Origin: Marinobacter excellens HL-55
GTDB taxonomy: Bacteria; Pseudomonadota; Gammaproteobacteria; Pseudomonadales; Oleiphilaceae
Direction: 5' to 3'
DNA: 64,000 nt
Assembly (NCBI GenBank): GCA_001314845.1
Contig: LJZQ01000003.1
Span: 1-64,000 of the forward strand
Part shown: in pieces, positions 7,691 through 21,185 of the stretch
Numbering within the stretch: position 1 is the stretch's first letter
Layout of the letters: the number at the start of each line of letters is the position of its first letter
Notes under the pieces: model-generated
Told to the model about the DNA's origin: nothing
The model's database searches: none
The model's input: only the letters and a program-made list of their open reading frames with translations
Translations under genes and position numbers: made by a program

Positions 7691-7944
7691 GACGGTGACG
7701 TCATCATTTCGTCCCCCTGGCCATGTGTTGCCATGTGCCCGATAAGGTTCCAGTTCTGTTTGTCGCCATGGATCGTCTCGACGTTAATTGACGGCTGGGG
7801 TGCGCTTCGTTTCTGCGAACCCTGGCACTTAACTATGGCGCTCTTGGCAAGGGCGCTCTGTGCGCCAACGAACGCAGCAGCAGGAATTTTTGCGTTTACC
7901 AAACTACAACCGACAACCGGCGGCGCTGCCGGTAACCTTTGGCC

Positions 7945-8724
7945 ATGCATCGATCATCGGCACTGCGGGAACGTGTTTTTCGGTCAGGGAATATCATCAG
8001 AGCACTGATAATAGTGAGCTTTTCGCTACTGTCGCTGCCACTACTTGGCTCAGCAAAGCAGGACGGCTATCGGCTGCTTGAGCTGGAAGGTTATCTGGTT
8101 AAATGGGGCGAGCAGCGGCTGGGCACCGGGGCAAGGATAACTTACGCCTTCGCGGATGAAACGCTGAACTTTGATGATGCCCGTAATTGCGGTGTTCTGG
8201 CGCCGATGGACGCGCTCTCCGGTGAGGATTTGGCCTTCGAGACGCTGGTACAGGAAACTGCTGCAGCGTTCCGGGTTTGGGAGCGTGCTGCTGACCTTTC
8301 ATTTCAACGGGTTTCGAATGCCCGCGATGCAGACATCATTCTCGGGGCCCAGGGCAATCCACAGCGGCGGGCCTTTGCCAATGTCACCTTTTCAACTGAT
8401 GGAACAGGGGATGTACGCGCCATTGACCAGGCTTTGATATGTCTGAATCCCGAACATAAGTGGAAGGTCGGTTTTGGTGGAGACCCCGAAATCTACGACA
8501 TACGCTACACGCTTATTCATGAGATCGGCCACGCCATCGGTCTGGATCATCCTGGCCCGTCAGGGCAAGTAATGGGCTTTCGCTACACCGAAAACTTCCC
8601 CGGATTGCAGCCTGGCGATTTGCTTGGCATACAACAGCTTTATGGGCACAGTGCCAGTGACCGTCAACTGGCCACCGGCAACACTTTTACTGAATCAGCA
8701 CTTAATCCGGTTCAGAAGTTATAG
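7945..8724 (+). CDS. Matrixin-like secreted metalloprotease (metzincin)
   Basis: The 259-residue product has a hydrophobic N-terminal segment (IIRALIIVSFSLLSLPLLG) that looks like a signal peptide or anchor after a basic stretch. The full metzincin zinc site HEIGHAIGLDH is present (His192, Glu193, His196, His202), followed by a Met-turn candidate in QVMGFRY. It therefore resembles M10-type matrixins, zinc endopeptidases that act outside the cytoplasm. ATG 7945 is preferred to a TTG at 7939. Its 3' end overlaps the convergent beta-barrel gene by 13 bp. The substrate is unknown. Confidence 0.8.
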   Translation: MHRSSALRERVFRSGNIIRALIIVSFSLLSLPLLGSAKQDGYRLLELEGYLVKWGEQRLGTGARITYAFADETLNFDDARNCGVLAPMDALSGEDLAFETLVQETAAAFRVWERAADLSFQRVSNARDADIILGAQGNPQRRAFANVTFSTDGTGDVRAIDQALICLNPEHKWKVGFGGDPEIYDIRYTLIHEIGHAIGLDHPGPSGQVMGFRYTENFPGLQPGDLLGIQQLYGHSASDRQLATGNTFTESALNPVQKL

Positions 8725-14693: not shown

Positions 14694-16016
14694 ATGCCCC
14701 AATCACCACTCGCCCAATCCCTCAAACTCCCCTGCGGAGCAGTCCTGCCAAACCGGCTTGCCAAAGCTGCCATGACCGAAGGGCTGGCAGACGATCAACT
14801 CCATGCTACACACCGCCATGAAACCCTCTATCGGCGCTGGTCCGATGGCGGGGCAGGGCTGTTGATTACCGGCAACGTGATGATTGACAACAGCGTGCTG
14901 GAGCGGCCTGGCAATGTGGCGATTGATCCGGCGCCGGAAGGCGAAGAGCCGGAAGGAATGGCGCAGTTACGCGCCTGGGCGAAAGCGGGCACCCGCAACG
15001 GCAACCATTTATGGATGCAGATTTCCCACGCCGGGCGGCAGTCGCCCCGTTACGTGACTACGCGCCCGGTGGGGCCATCAGCGGTGCAGCTGTCGTTAAT
15101 GGGCAACTATGCCCGCCCGCGGGCACTCACGGAGCCGGAGATCCTGGACTTTATCCAGCGTTTTGCCAATGTGGCCCGGATTGCCAAAGCCGCCGGTTTT
15201 ACCGGCGTTCAGGTGCATGGGGCTCATGGGTATCTGTTGTCGTCTTTTCTGTCTCCGGTCACCAATCAGCGCACAGATCGCTGGGGAGGATCGCTGGAGA
15301 ATCGCGCCCGCTTCCTTCTTGAGGTGGCGCGGGCGACTCGCGCCGCTGTGGGGCCGGAGTTTCCGGTGGCGGTAAAGCTGAATTCCGACGATTTCCGCAA
15401 GGGCGGGTTTACGCTTGATGAGTCTGTGCGCGTGGTGCGCTGGCTCAATGAGGAGGGTATTGATCTGCTGGAGGTGTCCGGCGGCACCTACGAACAGCCT
15501 CGGCTGCTCGGGTACAGTGGCGATGCTGACACGGCGAGCGACGGGCCAGATATGCGGGAAAGCACGCGCAAGCGGGAGGCCTATTTTCTTGATTATGCCC
15601 AGACGATTCGTGAGGTGTGTGACTGCCCGTTGATGGTCACCGGTGGCTTCCGTACGCGCACATTTATGGAGGAGGTGGTTGTGAGTGGGGAAACCGACGT
15701 AATTGGCCTTGGCCGGCCGCTCTGCACGGATCCGGACACCCCTGAGGATCTGCTTGAAGGGCGCATCGATAAGACGGTTTGCCACGAAGATCACATCAAG
15801 CTCGCCCAGCGCGGCTTTTTCTCGCCAGCGAGTCCGCTGATGCCGCTTAAAGTCATTAACGTGCTGGGCGGCCAGGCCTGGTACTACCAGCAGATTTTCC
15901 GGCTGGCAGATGATGGTAAGTCTGACCCGGACCTCAGTATTTTCAAGGCCATTGGGGCTTACTTGAAGGATGAGCTGAGCCGGTCCCGGCGCGTGAAAAA
16001 GGCCCGGCTTAGCTGA
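14694..16016 (+). CDS. NADH:flavin oxidoreductase (old yellow enzyme family)
   Basis: A 440-residue FMN-dependent TIM-barrel protein. Family features are clear: LPNRLAKAAMTEGLAD at the N-terminus, QISHAGRQ, the substrate/flavin region VQVHGAHGYLLSSFLSP followed by TNQRTDRWGGSLENR, and the phosphate-binding part (VTGGFRTR, DVIGLGRPL). It lacks the C-terminal FeS and Rossmann domains of 2,4-dienoyl-CoA reductase, so it is the short form. It probably reduces activated C=C bonds with NAD(P)H, but the substrate is unknown. It starts 55 bp after the formate dehydrogenase gene. Confidence 0.9.
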   Translation: MPQSPLAQSLKLPCGAVLPNRLAKAAMTEGLADDQLHATHRHETLYRRWSDGGAGLLITGNVMIDNSVLERPGNVAIDPAPEGEEPEGMAQLRAWAKAGTRNGNHLWMQISHAGRQSPRYVTTRPVGPSAVQLSLMGNYARPRALTEPEILDFIQRFANVARIAKAAGFTGVQVHGAHGYLLSSFLSPVTNQRTDRWGGSLENRARFLLEVARATRAAVGPEFPVAVKLNSDDFRKGGFTLDESVRVVRWLNEEGIDLLEVSGGTYEQPRLLGYSGDADTASDGPDMRESTRKREAYFLDYAQTIREVCDCPLMVTGGFRTRTFMEEVVVSGETDVIGLGRPLCTDPDTPEDLLEGRIDKTVCHEDHIKLAQRGFFSPASPLMPLKVINVLGGQAWYYQQIFRLADDGKSDPDLSIFKAIGAYLKDELSRSRRVKKARLS

Positions 16017-16563
16017 AGATGATTCTCTGGCTCAACCTCCAATCCTGCATTCTCAGCCGAAATTCACCAACTTGCCGTCCGGAAACGAAAAGGCTCACTG
16101 AAGCCAGGTGCTCAAGATCCAGTGGTCCCGCATCGGTCACTGTCTTGCCGCGCCAGGTCGGTATGAATTCACTGAATGGCAGGCGGATGCGGCTCCAGTC
16201 TTCCGTACCCGGGGTGAACGCATGCTGGTACACAATGCTGCTCCGGTCGGTGCTGTTCCGAAGACCGATCTTGTAGGTTTTGCCGTCGCCCAGAGCAAGG
16301 AGCTCGACACCCGTATAATTGGATGCATCGAACACTTCCGGCAGGTCCGCTTTGACGGAAGCAAAGCCGCCTCCGTTATCCAGTCGCACGGTGCCGTGAA
16401 AGAGGCCGACTCCTTTCTTAGAGTTAATGAGCGTTCCGTCCGATCGTCCGCCCATCACCTGGTCACCGAGTGAGCTCCACTCCAATCCCCCGTCTCGAGA
16501 ATCGAACGAAACCAGGGTGGGGTTGGCGCGGGCAGAGGCGTTTCGATCGACCTGAAGATTCAT
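16009..16563 (-). CDS. CIA30 family protein
   Basis: A 184-residue protein with one CIA30 domain, a jelly-roll/galactose-binding-like fold. Typical features are LEWSSLGDQVMGGRSDG near the start and a C-terminal strand series ending GEFRLRMQDW. Bacterial homologues are uncharacterised; the name comes from a mitochondrial complex I assembly factor. The only usable ATG (16563) and the first 11 residues lie inside a 60-bp repeat of the tail of the TOPRIM gene on the opposite strand, and no Shine-Dalgarno precedes it. The domain itself is complete. The 3' end overlaps the oxidoreductase gene by 8 bp. Confidence 0.75.
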   Translation of the reverse strand: MNLQVDRNASARANPTLVSFDSRDGGLEWSSLGDQVMGGRSDGTLINSKKGVGLFHGTVRLDNGGGFASVKADLPEVFDASNYTGVELLALGDGKTYKIGLRNSTDRSSIVYQHAFTPGTEDWSRIRLPFSEFIPTWRGKTVTDAGPLDLEHLASVSLFVSGRQVGEFRLRMQDWRLSQRIIFS

Positions 16564-16589
16564 GGAAGAGGAGATAACTCTGGATGAAT
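16530..16589. repeat. 60-bp direct repeat, copy A (degenerate tail of the TOPRIM gene)
   Basis: By eye this stretch matches 17953-18012 at about 51 of 60 positions without gaps. In the plus-strand frame it reads RAEAFRST, stop, RFMEEEITLDE, clearly related to LAEAFRATGKFMEQELILDE at the end of the gene at 17232. It is a remnant of a second copy of that gene end, and it now overlaps the 5' end of the CIA30 gene in antisense. Confidence 0.8.
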
Positions 16590-16633: not shown

Positions 16634-17017
16634 CTAACCGATAGCTCTCTGAACGGCCACATAATGCGTGACTTCGTCGCCATCCATCACCGGTGCGATC
16701 TTCCATTCAATGACAAAAGAGGAGCCGTCCTTACGGTAATTAATGGTGTCGCCGTGAAAGGTCCGTTTATTTTTCAGATCGTCAGCCAACCTCTCTTTGA
16801 CTCCGCTCTCTGTTCTCGGTCCCTGAAGCAATCCCGGTGTTTTTCCGATTACTTCATCTGCAGAATAGCCGGTTAGATTGCTGAAGGCCTGGTTTACATA
16901 GATGATCACAGAGTTTGTATGATCAGACGTCGCTTTGGTCACCATGATCGATTCAAAAGCCAAGTCGGCGACGGTTTGAAACAGCGGAGATTGAAGAATA
17001 TCTTCAGAATTGTTCAT
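16634..17017 (-). CDS. Single PAS-domain protein
   Basis: A 127-residue protein that is almost entirely one PAS domain (IIYVNQAFSNLTGYSADEVI, then a helix after GPRTESGVKE, then YRKDGSSFVIEW and the last strand HYVAVQRA). The segment GKTPGLLQG lies where LOV photoreceptors have the flavin-binding cysteine motif GRNCRFLQ. The cysteine is absent, so it is not a photocycling LOV protein. No output domain is fused, so it must act through a partner. It is transcribed away from the TOPRIM gene across a 214-bp divergent region with no other feature seen. Confidence 0.85.
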   Translation of the reverse strand: MNNSEDILQSPLFQTVADLAFESIMVTKATSDHTNSVIIYVNQAFSNLTGYSADEVIGKTPGLLQGPRTESGVKERLADDLKNKRTFHGDTINYRKDGSSFVIEWKIAPVMDGDEVTHYVAVQRAIG

Positions 17018-17231
17018 ACATATCCCTCTGCGTTAAAAATGGTTTTGATTGGTAACGCCCTTCTAGTGTACGAACTGCTTCTGTCACTGTATCAGTTGGG
17101 TGTGACGTCGAACTCAGCACGGCCCGGCGGGTTAAATTGTCTGACGGCGTCCCACAGGGGATGCAACCAACGTTACACTAATCATTAAATATACGTTTAA
17201 AAACACTGTTCAGAGTGATTATGGTGCGCCG

Positions 17232-18014
17232 TTGAACGATTACCTCCAGAAAATCCTGCGTGGGCAGCCCATTAACTACGAAGCCTTCCTGAAGAAACTT
17301 CCGGAGCTGTTTCGCCGTCGCCATCGCGAACTGTTTGCCACGGAAAAAGTGCAAACCAACCGCTGGCTGGTCACGATCCTCGATGAAGTCGCGTTTGCGG
17401 AACTGCAGAATACAGCGGAGGCTCCGGTCAGCAGGGTAGGTGCCGCGAGAAAGGGTAACTCCCACCGCCATGGTACCAATGTCAGTTTTTTGCTGGTTTA
17501 CCATCAGGGGCTGGCGTCCAATCGCCCGGACGTTGTGGTTATCGGGAACGAGTATGTTGATACGGGGTTTCACCGCGCCAGGTCTGTGCTGGTGGTAGAG
17601 AATGAGCGGAATTTCTACCAGTATCGACAGATGCTCGACTTTGCCAGTGAGGCTCGGGGCATTGATTTTCGGCTAGCGAATTGCGATGTGGTGTTGGGCG
17701 GTGGCAACCGGGTGACCAGCAGCGCAGTTATCGACTGGTTGAAGGACTACGACGACGTATTCTGCGCATTCGATTACGATGTCGGTGGTCTGCAAATGTT
17801 CTCGACGATAGCCGCGTCGCTCGGTGATAAAGCCAGGTTTGTGCAGCCGCGTGACTGGCAATCGTGGTTGGATCGGTTCTGTAAAATACCAGACACCACC
17901 GAGCGGTTTACAAGAGCTTTATCGCTCGCGGAGAAGCTTGGTTTTATGGCTCTGGCAGAGGCGTTTCGAGCCACCGGAAAATTCATGGAACAGGAGCTGA
18001 TTCTGGATGAATGA
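17232..18014 (+). CDS. Solitary TOPRIM-domain protein resembling JetD (DUF2220-like)
   Basis: A 260-residue protein of uncertain role. The C-terminal half has the TOPRIM pattern: a strand ending in an acidic residue (SVLVVENERNF, Glu123), a glycine turn (VVLGGGNRV, 156-158) and a DxD with following glycines (FDYDVGGLQMF, Asp181 and Asp183). This layout matches the DUF2220 domain of JetD, the nuclease of the Wadjet plasmid-defence system, and more distantly Spo11/topo VI-A. The N-terminal 100 residues look like a helical DNA-binding region (Arg/Lys rich) but are not recognised. No jetA, jetB or jetC is nearby. The start is TTG at 17232; an ATG-GTG-CGC-CGT-TGA mini-ORF overlaps it and might couple translation. 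Confidence 0.6.
   Translation: MNDYLQKILRGQPINYEAFLKKLPELFRRRHRELFATEKVQTNRWLVTILDEVAFAELQNTAEAPVSRVGAARKGNSHRHGTNVSFLLVYHQGLASNRPDVVVIGNEYVDTGFHRARSVLVVENERNFYQYRQMLDFASEARGIDFRLANCDVVLGGGNRVTSSAVIDWLKDYDDVFCAFDYDVGGLQMFSTIAASLGDKARFVQPRDWQSWLDRFCKIPDTTERFTRALSLAEKLGFMALAEAFRATGKFMEQELILDE
17953..18012. repeat. 60-bp direct repeat, copy B (intact end of the TOPRIM gene)
   Basis: The last 20 codons of the TOPRIM gene. Copy A at 16530-16589 is about 85 percent identical by eye. The copies lie 1.4 kb apart in direct orientation and flank the PAS gene. Confidence 0.8.
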
Positions 18015-19114: not shown

Positions 19115-19402
19115 ATGAGCATGAAAGACACTTACATCAAGAAGCTTCGGGCCAAACTGGATGAATGGAACGCAGAGATCGACAAGCTGAAAGCCAAGGC
19201 TGACTACAAGGAAGCGGGCGCGCAGCAGGAGTACTACAAGCAGATCGAAGAGCTTAAATCCATGCGCGAAGACGTCAGAAAAAAGCTAGATGAACTGAGC
19301 GACGCAGGTGACGACGCCTGGGAAGATCTAAAAGCTGGCGTAGACAGCGCCTGGGACTCTGTAAACCGCTCGATAAAGCAGGCGACCTCTCGTTTCAAGT
19401 GA
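19115..19402 (+). CDS. Small coiled-coil stress-response-type protein
   Basis: A 95-residue, highly charged helical protein (IKKLRAKLDEWNAEIDKLKA, later KSMREDVRKKLDEL and a second amphipathic helix DDAWEDLKAGVDSAWDS). It matches small coiled-coil proteins annotated as sll1863-type stress-response proteins. There is no signal peptide or membrane segment. AAGGA lies about 10 bases before the ATG. Function is unknown; the last helix could bind membrane. Confidence 0.7.
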   Translation: MSMKDTYIKKLRAKLDEWNAEIDKLKAKADYKEAGAQQEYYKQIEELKSMREDVRKKLDELSDAGDDAWEDLKAGVDSAWDSVNRSIKQATSRFK

Positions 19403-19427: not shown

Positions 19428-21185
19428 TCAGGTTTGTGATCGGTCAGTCAGGAATTGCGGTAATGCGCTGGCTGGCATGGGCTTGGCGTACAGAAAACCT
19501 TGTGCCAGATCGCAGCCTAGCTCCTTGACCAAATTGTTTTGTTCTTCGGTTTCAACGCCTTCGATAACCACACCAAGGCCGAGGCGGTGCCCGACGGTGA
19601 TGATGGCCTGCATGATGGCCATATCGCCGTCGTCTTCCATGGCATGATGCAAGAAACTCCGGTCGATCTTCAGGCTGCACACGGGTAGCTTTCTCAAGTA
19701 CACCAACGATGAATAACCGGTGCCAAAATCATCAATGGAGATATGAACTCCCGCTTCTTTGAGCCGCTCCAGTTGGCCTATTTGCTCTGGATCTCCGCCA
19801 ATCACTTCATTCTCTGTGAGCTCAACGCCCAGTTGCGACGGCAGTAGGTGATATTTCCGCAGGGTGTTGAGGATATGATCAGCCAGGTTCAGGTTATTCA
19901 GTTGCTTGCCGGATAGATTGATGTCCACCCGCATGTTCGCAAGCTGAGTGCCTTTCCAGGCACTCAGCTGATTGCACGCAGCCTCAATCACCCAATCACC
20001 AACACGATTGATGAGCCCCGACTTCTCTGCCACCGGAATAAAAACATCCGGAGAGACGGGCCTGGCGTTGTTATCAAAACATCTAAGCAACGCTTCAACG
20101 GATCGGATCTGCCCATCCTGAAGGTGGATCTGCGGCTGAAAGTACAGTTGCAGGCGATCGGTGGAGAGGGCAGTACGGAGAAGGGCCGTCATCTGCTGGT
20201 AGTGAATGAGACGGTCATTGATGTCTGAAGTATAGAAGCAGACGTTGTTCTTACCCTTCTCTTTGGCTTGATACATGGCGGCATCAGCATTTCCCATTAG
20301 CTCTGAGACGGTTTTACCGTCCTGGGGAAACTGGCTTACGCCGAAACTGGCAGTCACCTGATAGCAAGCGTCATCCAGCAGGAATCCCTGGTCAAGAACG
20401 GTAATCAGACGCCGAAGCAGTTCATGAATACCTTCCGGTCCATCGGCGTCAAACAGCAACAACACAAACTCATCGCCGCCAAACCGGCTTAGAAGGTCGC
20501 AACTTCTAATTTCGGCTTTCAGGCCATCAGCAACCGCCAGCAAGAGCTCGTCGCCGTGATGATGGCCCAGTGTGTCATTGATCAACTTAAAGTTGTCCAG
20601 ATCAATAAACACGACCGTTACCTGACCGTTTAGTCTTCGTTCAGCCTCGGCCAGTCGAGCAGAAAGTTCGACTTCCATAAACCGCCTGTTGGGAAGCTGC
20701 GTTAGATCATCGAAGCTGGCCATCAAGTGCAGTCTTTCATTAGCTTTTTTCTGTTCTTGCAGGCTGATGTCTATGCAAAACATTTCGCAGTCACCGGTAT
20801 CCTGTTTGATCAGCACGTGGCTTGAGTAAACGGGTACCAGATGGCCGTCTTTGTGTTTGAGTTCGATTTCTTCCGCGGGGATGCTGATGTTGTGGTCCAG
20901 CCAGTCCTGATGGGCAGTTATGACGCTTTCTCGCATAGCGTCCGGGATAATCAAGTTTTCCAGCAACTGGCCCTCGGCTTCTTGTCGCGTGTATCCGTAA
21001 AGCCGTCTGCTTGCGTCGTTCCAATAGATTACCCGACGATGCCGATCATAGCCTTGCACCGCGACCATCGGCAGGCTCTCAATCAGCTCGTAAAAATTTT
21101 GTTCACTTTGTTTCTTGGCAAACGGGGGATGCGGAACAGGGTCAGCGGAGGGTTGAGGTGTTTTCTGGCCGCGTTTGCCGGGCAT
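19428..21185 (-). CDS. PAS-GGDEF-EAL cyclic-di-GMP signalling protein
   Basis: A 585-residue cytosolic protein: PAS domain (about 30-150), GGDEF domain (160-320) and EAL domain (335-580). The GGDEF motif is intact (SRFGGDEFVLLL), with a product-inhibition RxxD five residues before it (RSCD). The EAL side has EALLR, DDFGTGYSSL, KIDRSFL and EGVET, so both diguanylate cyclase and phosphodiesterase activities are possible. No membrane segment is seen, so the PAS domain is the likely input. It is convergent with the coiled-coil gene. Confidence 0.92.
   Translation of the reverse strand: MPGKRGQKTPQPSADPVPHPPFAKKQSEQNFYELIESLPMVAVQGYDRHRRVIYWNDASRRLYGYTRQEAEGQLLENLIIPDAMRESVITAHQDWLDHNISIPAEEIELKHKDGHLVPVYSSHVLIKQDTGDCEMFCIDISLQEQKKANERLHLMASFDDLTQLPNRRFMEVELSARLAEAERRLNGQVTVVFIDLDNFKLINDTLGHHHGDELLLAVADGLKAEIRSCDLLSRFGGDEFVLLLFDADGPEGIHELLRRLITVLDQGFLLDDACYQVTASFGVSQFPQDGKTVSELMGNADAAMYQAKEKGKNNVCFYTSDINDRLIHYQQMTALLRTALSTDRLQLYFQPQIHLQDGQIRSVEALLRCFDNNARPVSPDVFIPVAEKSGLINRVGDWVIEAACNQLSAWKGTQLANMRVDINLSGKQLNNLNLADHILNTLRKYHLLPSQLGVELTENEVIGGDPEQIGQLERLKEAGVHISIDDFGTGYSSLVYLRKLPVCSLKIDRSFLHHAMEDDGDMAIMQAIITVGHRLGLGVVIEGVETEEQNNLVKELGCDLAQGFLYAKPMPASALPQFLTDRSQT

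Follow-up and report, generated by a model that had tools for sequence, protein, structure and literature searches.

An orphan MksG/JetD-type TOPRIM protein of Marinobacter excellens, putative nuclease subunit of a divergent MksBEFG/Wadjet-like condensin

Introduction

In the JetABCD and MksBEFG systems, an SMC complex is reported to extrude DNA loops and to complete extrusion only on small circles, which the nuclease then cuts (PMC10586767, PMC12287153). In C. glutamicum MksBEFG (Wadjet type I), the nuclease MksG is reported to contact the complex via MksF (PMC7083940). P. aeruginosa MksBEF consists of an SMC-like protein and partners without nuclease, and it has been proposed in a review that it arose from Wadjet by loss of JetD (PMC10586767).

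The window analyzed here is the whole stretch of 64,000 nucleotides at positions 1–64,000 of contig LJZQ01000003.1 from Marinobacter excellens HL-55, the genome of which is coded G000. It encodes a protein, TOP, that shares with MksG the TOPRIM fold, the Glu/Asp centre and a C-terminal ExE pair. As in MksBEFG, the nuclease-type gene is encoded in relatives with SMC-like and MksE genes, whereas the gene order is G-B-F-E in Marinobacter and F-E-B-G in C. glutamicum (mksFEBG), and the SMC protein has 980 residues here versus the 1111 reported for C. glutamicum (PMC10123090). The system of G000 is moreover split over two loci. TOP shares the Pfam domain JetD_C and the fold with JetD of P. aeruginosa JetABCD (7til), but it has no DUF3322 match, and the third genes of the operons have no JetA match (22 of 22). 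The fold is also that of topoisomerase VI-A/Spo11; unlike topoisomerase VI-A, TOP is encoded with a condensin in relatives. By gene content, nuclease-less Marinobacter operons can be likened to MksBEF of P. aeruginosa, except that the loss in Marinobacter is recent and recurrent, with the tail of the nuclease gene still visible.

By analogy with these systems, TOP is probably the DNA-cutting part of a DNA-looping machine that destroys plasmids. We hold with high confidence that it is the nuclease-type subunit of a divergent MksBEFG/Wadjet-like condensin family, parted from its operon.

Results

Fold and conserved residues of TOP

The features of the window discussed below are the following.

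17232–18014, plus strand: TOP, orphan MksG/JetD-type TOPRIM nuclease subunit, assigned from JetD_C, the AlphaFold2 model and invariant residues.
17992–18009, plus strand: end of TOP, likely ribosome-binding site (AGGAG, 17992–17996) and start (ATG, 18007–18009) of the SMC gene in relatives.
16524–16589, plus strand: relic tail of a second TOP gene (codons ~239–260 and former SMC start), at the 5' end of the CIA30 gene.
16009–16563, minus strand: CIA30 gene (PF08547, 5.4e-41), left flank of site A, adjoining the operon in many relatives.
16634–17017, minus strand: PAS-domain protein (PAS_9, 8.3e-17), a neighbour outside the system.
19428–21185, minus strand: GGDEF/EAL gene ('EALd'), right flank of site A, directly after MksE in some relatives.

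The TOP reading frame is intact and encodes 260 residues from a TTG start codon; relatives also have a start codon here, TTG in most and GTG or ATG in some. A promoter search of the region yielded one promoter-like match, about the same as in shuffled sequences. The protein matches JetD_C (PF09983) with an E-value of 5.4e-5 and 23.0 bits, for a cut-off of 22, as do all 34 close relatives in the alignment, and it is the sole JetD_C match in the whole genome. The PADLOC JetD models match weakly (best E 0.0027), no DUF3322 match was found with Pfam at E≤1, and comparison of a TOP profile with PDB chains produced weak matches alone (E≥0.97, and E≥0.088 in a second search, T7 primase among them).

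The AlphaFold2 model has a mean pLDDT of 87.8. It superimposes best onto MksG (8b7f) with a Z-score of 14.4 and an r.m.s.d. of 2.9 over 152 residues, within residues 82–260, with 14% identity in the aligned fold. Topoisomerase VI-A follows (1d3y, Z 11.7), then, lower, JetD (7til, Z 10.3) and a second protein of the topoisomerase VI-A/Spo11 kind (8urq, Z 9.5), while in the Foldseek ranking topoisomerase VI comes first and JetD is eighth. All the structural matches cover residues ~80–260; residues 1–81, the part that would correspond to the 5Y-CAP region of topoisomerase VI-A, are barely compared, and the fold comparison provides no evidence against a CAP domain there. The preliminary description, which recognized a TOPRIM protein with a JetD-like centre and called for comparison with JetD and topoisomerase VI-A, is thus borne out, as is its remark that the protein is shorter than JetD (260 residues, versus 365–374 in 7til and 368 for MksG in 8b7f).

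E123, D181, D183, E253 and E255 are invariant in the 34 close and in 20 additional divergent sequences. The first three had been pointed out beforehand, their lack of conservation in homologues being named as a possible refutation, alongside a predicted structure lacking the TOPRIM fold; they are conserved, and the model does have that fold. In MksG, cleavage is reported to suffer drastically from the substitutions E236A and D279A, and a role as alternative nucleophiles is considered for E349/E351 (PMC10123090). We infer from order and spacing, rather than from alignment, that the conserved acids of TOP are putative equivalents of MksG E236, D279, E349 and E351. E123, D181, D183 and the E253-x-E255 pair are the putative catalytic residues.

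The TOP-SMC-F-MksE operon in relatives

When the partner proteins were mapped on the fetched loci, the usual place of TOP in relatives was found to be the first gene of a TOP-SMC-F-MksE operon. The search of the genus gave TOP matches in 63 of 124 genomes, amounting to 57 TOP genes (full-length, frameshifted or cut by a contig end) in 55 genomes. There are 68 SMC genes in 66 genomes, 73 genomes having been matched and seven left uncounted as weak (E about 1e-7; G021, G035, G039, G050, G062, G067, G112). TOP directly precedes SMC in 53 cases (51 genomes), a pair counting as adjacent when about 120 nt or less separates the end of TOP from the start of SMC; F and MksE follow SMC in those of the loci that were displayed. 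In 40 of these pairs, SMC begins inside the end of TOP, 4 nt ahead of the final base of the last TOP codon, so that the two genes overlap by 8 nt when the stop is included. Every one of the 55 genomes with TOP encodes SMC. At the level of the order, TOP matches were found in 12 of 293 genomes, and at each of the five loci fetched outside the family TOP is followed by SMC and MksE-like genes. The examination of homologous neighbourhoods recommended in the preliminary description therefore did reveal SMC-like partners.

In Marinobacter, two chromosomal sites are met repeatedly. Site A lies between OYE/CIA30 and a GGDEF/EAL gene, and site B is next to a metallo-beta-lactamase-like gene; the names OYE, GGDEF/EAL and metallo-beta-lactamase are our presumed assignments, read from the sequences. 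In one relative (L040), the MksE match ends at 15760 and the GGDEF/EAL homologue begins at 15783.

Other arrangements were encountered. A TOP-SMC-MksE operon only 26–29% identical to the G000 type is present at L073–L078 (G053, G048, G014, G097, G080, G123), G097 and G080 holding it besides a close one. At L189 and L190, the genes stand in the canonical order F-E-B-G, the SMC being short (923 residues) and the nuclease ~300 residues long; the nuclease of L189 matches DUF7281, a family with matches above the cut-off in 38 of the 124 genus genomes. In L142 (G002, which has no SMC gene), about the first 15 TOP codons are kept in a 104-residue reading frame beside CIA30 (7825–8139), an operon eroded from the opposite end. 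Contigs titled as Rhodopirellula and Halomonas MAGs (L070, L067) carry Marinobacter-like site-A genes or the operon with 69–94% identity and are probably mis-binned or mis-named. A phage or plasmid origin of TOP was considered and dropped, since the databases contained no matching phage record and a single plasmid record (Photobacterium, 28.8% identity).

Two complementary loci in M. excellens

The window corresponds to site A with TOP alone, the SMC gene being missing after it. The end of TOP (17947–18012) is repeated at 16524–16589 with 84.8% identity over 66 nt (E 5e-15), so the decayed tail copy noticed earlier is real. The left flank of this relic is the conserved start of CIA30, and the relic is absent there in the sister genome G088. 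It is read as the mark of a second operon copy once at, or recombined into, site A.

The partners are encoded on another contig, C30, which represents site B. There, SMC, F and MksE are preceded by the last 43–46 codons of another TOP, the second TOP match of the genome. The claim that jetABC are absent consequently holds for the window and fails for the genome. The SMC-like ATPase of 980 residues matches PADLOC JetC (1.7e-6) and Lamassu LmuB (1.8e-6) equally well, which counts against the MksBEFG/Wadjet-like account. MksE matches PF21980 (1e-24). The PADLOC JetB match is weak (1.8e-5). The third gene, F, is a candidate for the kleisin position and is likewise counted against the main account: its AlphaFold2 model has low confidence (pLDDT 53.6), JetA matches none of its 22 family members at E≤1 and no other PADLOC model does, Pfam gives weak and scattered matches alone, and its profile is negative against the F position of canonical F-E-B-G operons (five sequences on the canonical side). 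Neither the SMC and third-gene profiles nor the MksE sequence significantly matched PDB chains. No DUF7281 match was found in G000; as TOP is in addition the only JetD_C protein, this counts for TOP serving the C30 condensin. A canonical Smc is also encoded in G000, so that the C30 complex is not the sole condensin of the cell.

Other observations concern the neighbours of TOP. The PAS protein is LOV-like (YtvA family model, 5.2e-22, below the cut-off of that model). It reads GKTPGLLQ where LOV domains have a cysteine, and it is probably not light-sensitive. ARAGORN calls a tRNA-Gly at 16312–16389 on the minus strand, inside the CIA30 coding sequence; this call is probably false. A 95-residue coiled-coil-like protein (19115–19399, plus strand) shows 100% identity between G000 and G088, above its neighbours.

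Repeated separation of TOP from the condensin

In 15 cases, SMC is not preceded by a full TOP. A profile search recovered a TOP tail of 19–48 codons in 13 of these loci, with internal stops in three. At least 14 of the last 15 nt before SMC agree with the most frequent nucleotide among 39 operonic loci in 14 of the 15, and nine do in G040. The stretch contains AGGAG upstream of the SMC start and looks like the SMC ribosome-binding site, a dual role that may explain why the tail outlives the rest of the gene. Because the tails recur, the repeat had been considered as an integration (att) site; this was dropped, as the recognizable tails abut the SMC start and their conservation follows the pattern of a ribosome-binding site.

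Four TOP genes are orphans (G000, G088, G081, G040), and all four genomes belong to those with a TOP-less SMC, which counts for a split system. The distribution (4 of 15 TOP-less-SMC genomes versus 0 of 109 others) gives a Fisher probability of 1.5e-4 with kinship ignored, or 1.2e-3 with G000 and G088 taken as one lineage; the association is partly built in, since TOP leaving an operon makes that operon TOP-less. In the remaining 11 of the 66 SMC-bearing genomes a full TOP is missing altogether, indicating that the condensin can do without it. A DUF7281-type nuclease is present in three of these (G019, G045, G057) and in none of the other eight.

A tree was built from 64 SMC rows (TOP adjacent in 49, lost in 11, split in 4) by a quick method, 17 of its 61 inner branches being left open; it omits matches with no single piece of about 900 residues or more (such as G065, G074, G099), copies below 30% identity, and L066, where the contig starts inside TOP. 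Adjacency changes 12 times on this tree, at least eight of the changes being forced by well-supported branches, compared with a mean of 13.7 for shuffled labels; the state is therefore hardly clustered. Loss probably accounts for most changes, given that the tail persists in 13 of the 15 TOP-less loci; regain by recombination in some lineages may account for part of them.

The SMC gene is under comparable constraint with or without its neighbour. The dN/dS ratio lies between 0.022 and 0.058 in seven pairs of which one or both members are TOP-less (G057/L040 0.022, G001/G107 0.058, G078/L062 0.035, G022/L055 0.044, G055/G115 0.051 with both TOP-less, G000/G088 0.052, G000/L051 0.048), and between 0.031 and 0.058 in eight pairs with TOP adjacent in both. 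G045/G040 (0.125) was kept out of the range because its dS of 1.3 is near saturation. The segments GPGNLGKSS and LDELASVD, which we take to be the Walker A and B motifs, are invariant in a 10-row alignment including five TOP-less loci. The low ratios and invariant motifs point to strong purifying selection: judged from its sequence, the condensin of TOP-less relatives is kept without its nuclease.

Lineages and selection of TOP

The SMC genes of G000 and G088 group with site-B operons (L051, L053) with a support of 100. Their TOP genes lie inside a 26-row clade (96/93) from which the TOPs of these site-B operons are excluded, and the window TOP groups with site-A operons. In G040 and G081, TOP and SMC are also of unlike affinity, some forks being weak. 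Together with the relic tail, the complementary losses at the two sites agree with the history of duplication and loss that had been proposed for the locus.

Between the window and G088, the PAS gene and the stretch behind TOP are 88–98% identical at the DNA level and the CIA30 stretch 72–84%. Within TOP (17223–17722 against L129), the 5' two thirds are 74–85% and the 3' third 92–95% identical to the sister DNA, and dS is 0.83 for codons 1–164 and 0.11 for the 74 codons compared after. This contrast indicates that TOP is recombinant and thus that TOP alleles were exchanged after the split of G000 and G088. The non-recombined 3' part has five synonymous and eight non-synonymous changes, a dN/dS of 0.43 that fits relaxed constraint, with too few changes to tell it from normal; eight pairs of operonic TOPs give 0.116–0.262. 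In G088, TOP carries a frameshift near codon 238, which may be an assembly error, the neighbouring DUF3581 gene of the same MAG being frameshifted too. The weak signal of selection and the frameshift are counted against a function of TOP in trans.

Discussion

By sequence, TOP-SMC-F-MksE is close in kind to MksBEFG/Wadjet and is a divergent relative of it. It was not filed under Wadjet I–III, because the PADLOC models fail (JetA absent; JetB, JetC and JetD weak) and the gene order differs from mksFEBG. No split or trans-acting JetD/MksG, and no TOP-SMC-F-MksE operon of Marinobacter, is described in the titles and beginnings of abstracts that were searched, a scope outside which most subscription papers and bioRxiv lie.

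The explanation that we rate as rather likely is that TOP is the orphan nuclease of a split system and serves the C30 condensin. The ancestor of G000 and G088 would have carried the operon twice. At site A, SMC-F-MksE would have been lost while TOP stayed; at site B, TOP would have been deleted down to its 3' tail while SMC-F-MksE stayed. The C30 complex would load on DNA and use ATP to extrude loops. If the DNA is a small plasmid circle, extrusion would run to completion and the complex would stall, and the stalled complex would recruit or activate a TOP dimer supplied in trans, the metal-binding TOPRIM centre of which would cut both strands. The observed basis comprises the operon in relatives, the fold, the residues, the complementary loci, the unlike lineages of TOP and SMC, and the selection on SMC; we infer extrusion, activation and cutting by analogy with the known systems. 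It is uncertain whether TOP works in trans with a condensin whose lineage differs from its own.

TOP might instead be a leftover of the decayed site-A operon, the C30 condensin now being a nuclease-free, MksBEF-like chromosome organizer, a state that other nuclease-less relatives may share. We consider this a serious alternative, about one chance in three. It would account for the 11 SMC-bearing genomes without full TOP, eight of them also without DUF7281, for the similar SMC dN/dS ratios with and without TOP, and for the dN/dS of the 3' part of TOP and the G088 frameshift. The window TOP is nonetheless intact over 260 codons with all invariant residues retained, and orphan TOPs occur in none of the 51 genomes with adjacent TOP and SMC and in none of the 58 without SMC. 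The presence of SMC in all 55 TOP-bearing genomes of the genus, and of TOP directly before SMC in 53 of 57 cases, led us to drop the reading of TOP as a free nuclease or DNA-processing enzyme. MksG alone is reported to cut DNA in vitro with divalent metals (PMC10123090), but JetD alone reportedly does so only at artificially high concentration (PMC10586767), and we regard a free enzyme as very improbable. The candidate defence factor of the preliminary description thus keeps its defence-type origin and loses its stand-alone character, as TOP is a condensin–nuclease subunit in relatives. The suggestion that the PAS protein belongs to the unit, forming a sensor and nuclease pair with TOP, was abandoned on the gene neighbourhood and appears scarcely credible: the two are divergent neighbours in the window, G088 and G107, but the pair is absent from the other displayed TOP loci, and in G088 and G107 PAS is 97–99% and TOP 79–81% identical to the window, which speaks against joint evolution.

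Returning to the split system, the genus may hold a Wadjet-like condensin that repeatedly sheds its nuclease and stays on as an MksBEF-like complex, served in trans in a few genomes by an orphan of another lineage; this wider picture is quite conceivable, if somewhat short of even chances. Marinobacter provides a natural series of nuclease losses, with at least eight changes, together with close relatives in which the nuclease is retained, so that the step from plasmid killer to chromosome organizer can be tested in sister strains by Hi-C and plasmid maintenance. The likely defence system is barely visible to PADLOC models, and the partners of an apparently orphan defence gene should be sought elsewhere in the genome. 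If the wider picture is true, an MksBEF-like domestication has been caught mid-process within one genus.
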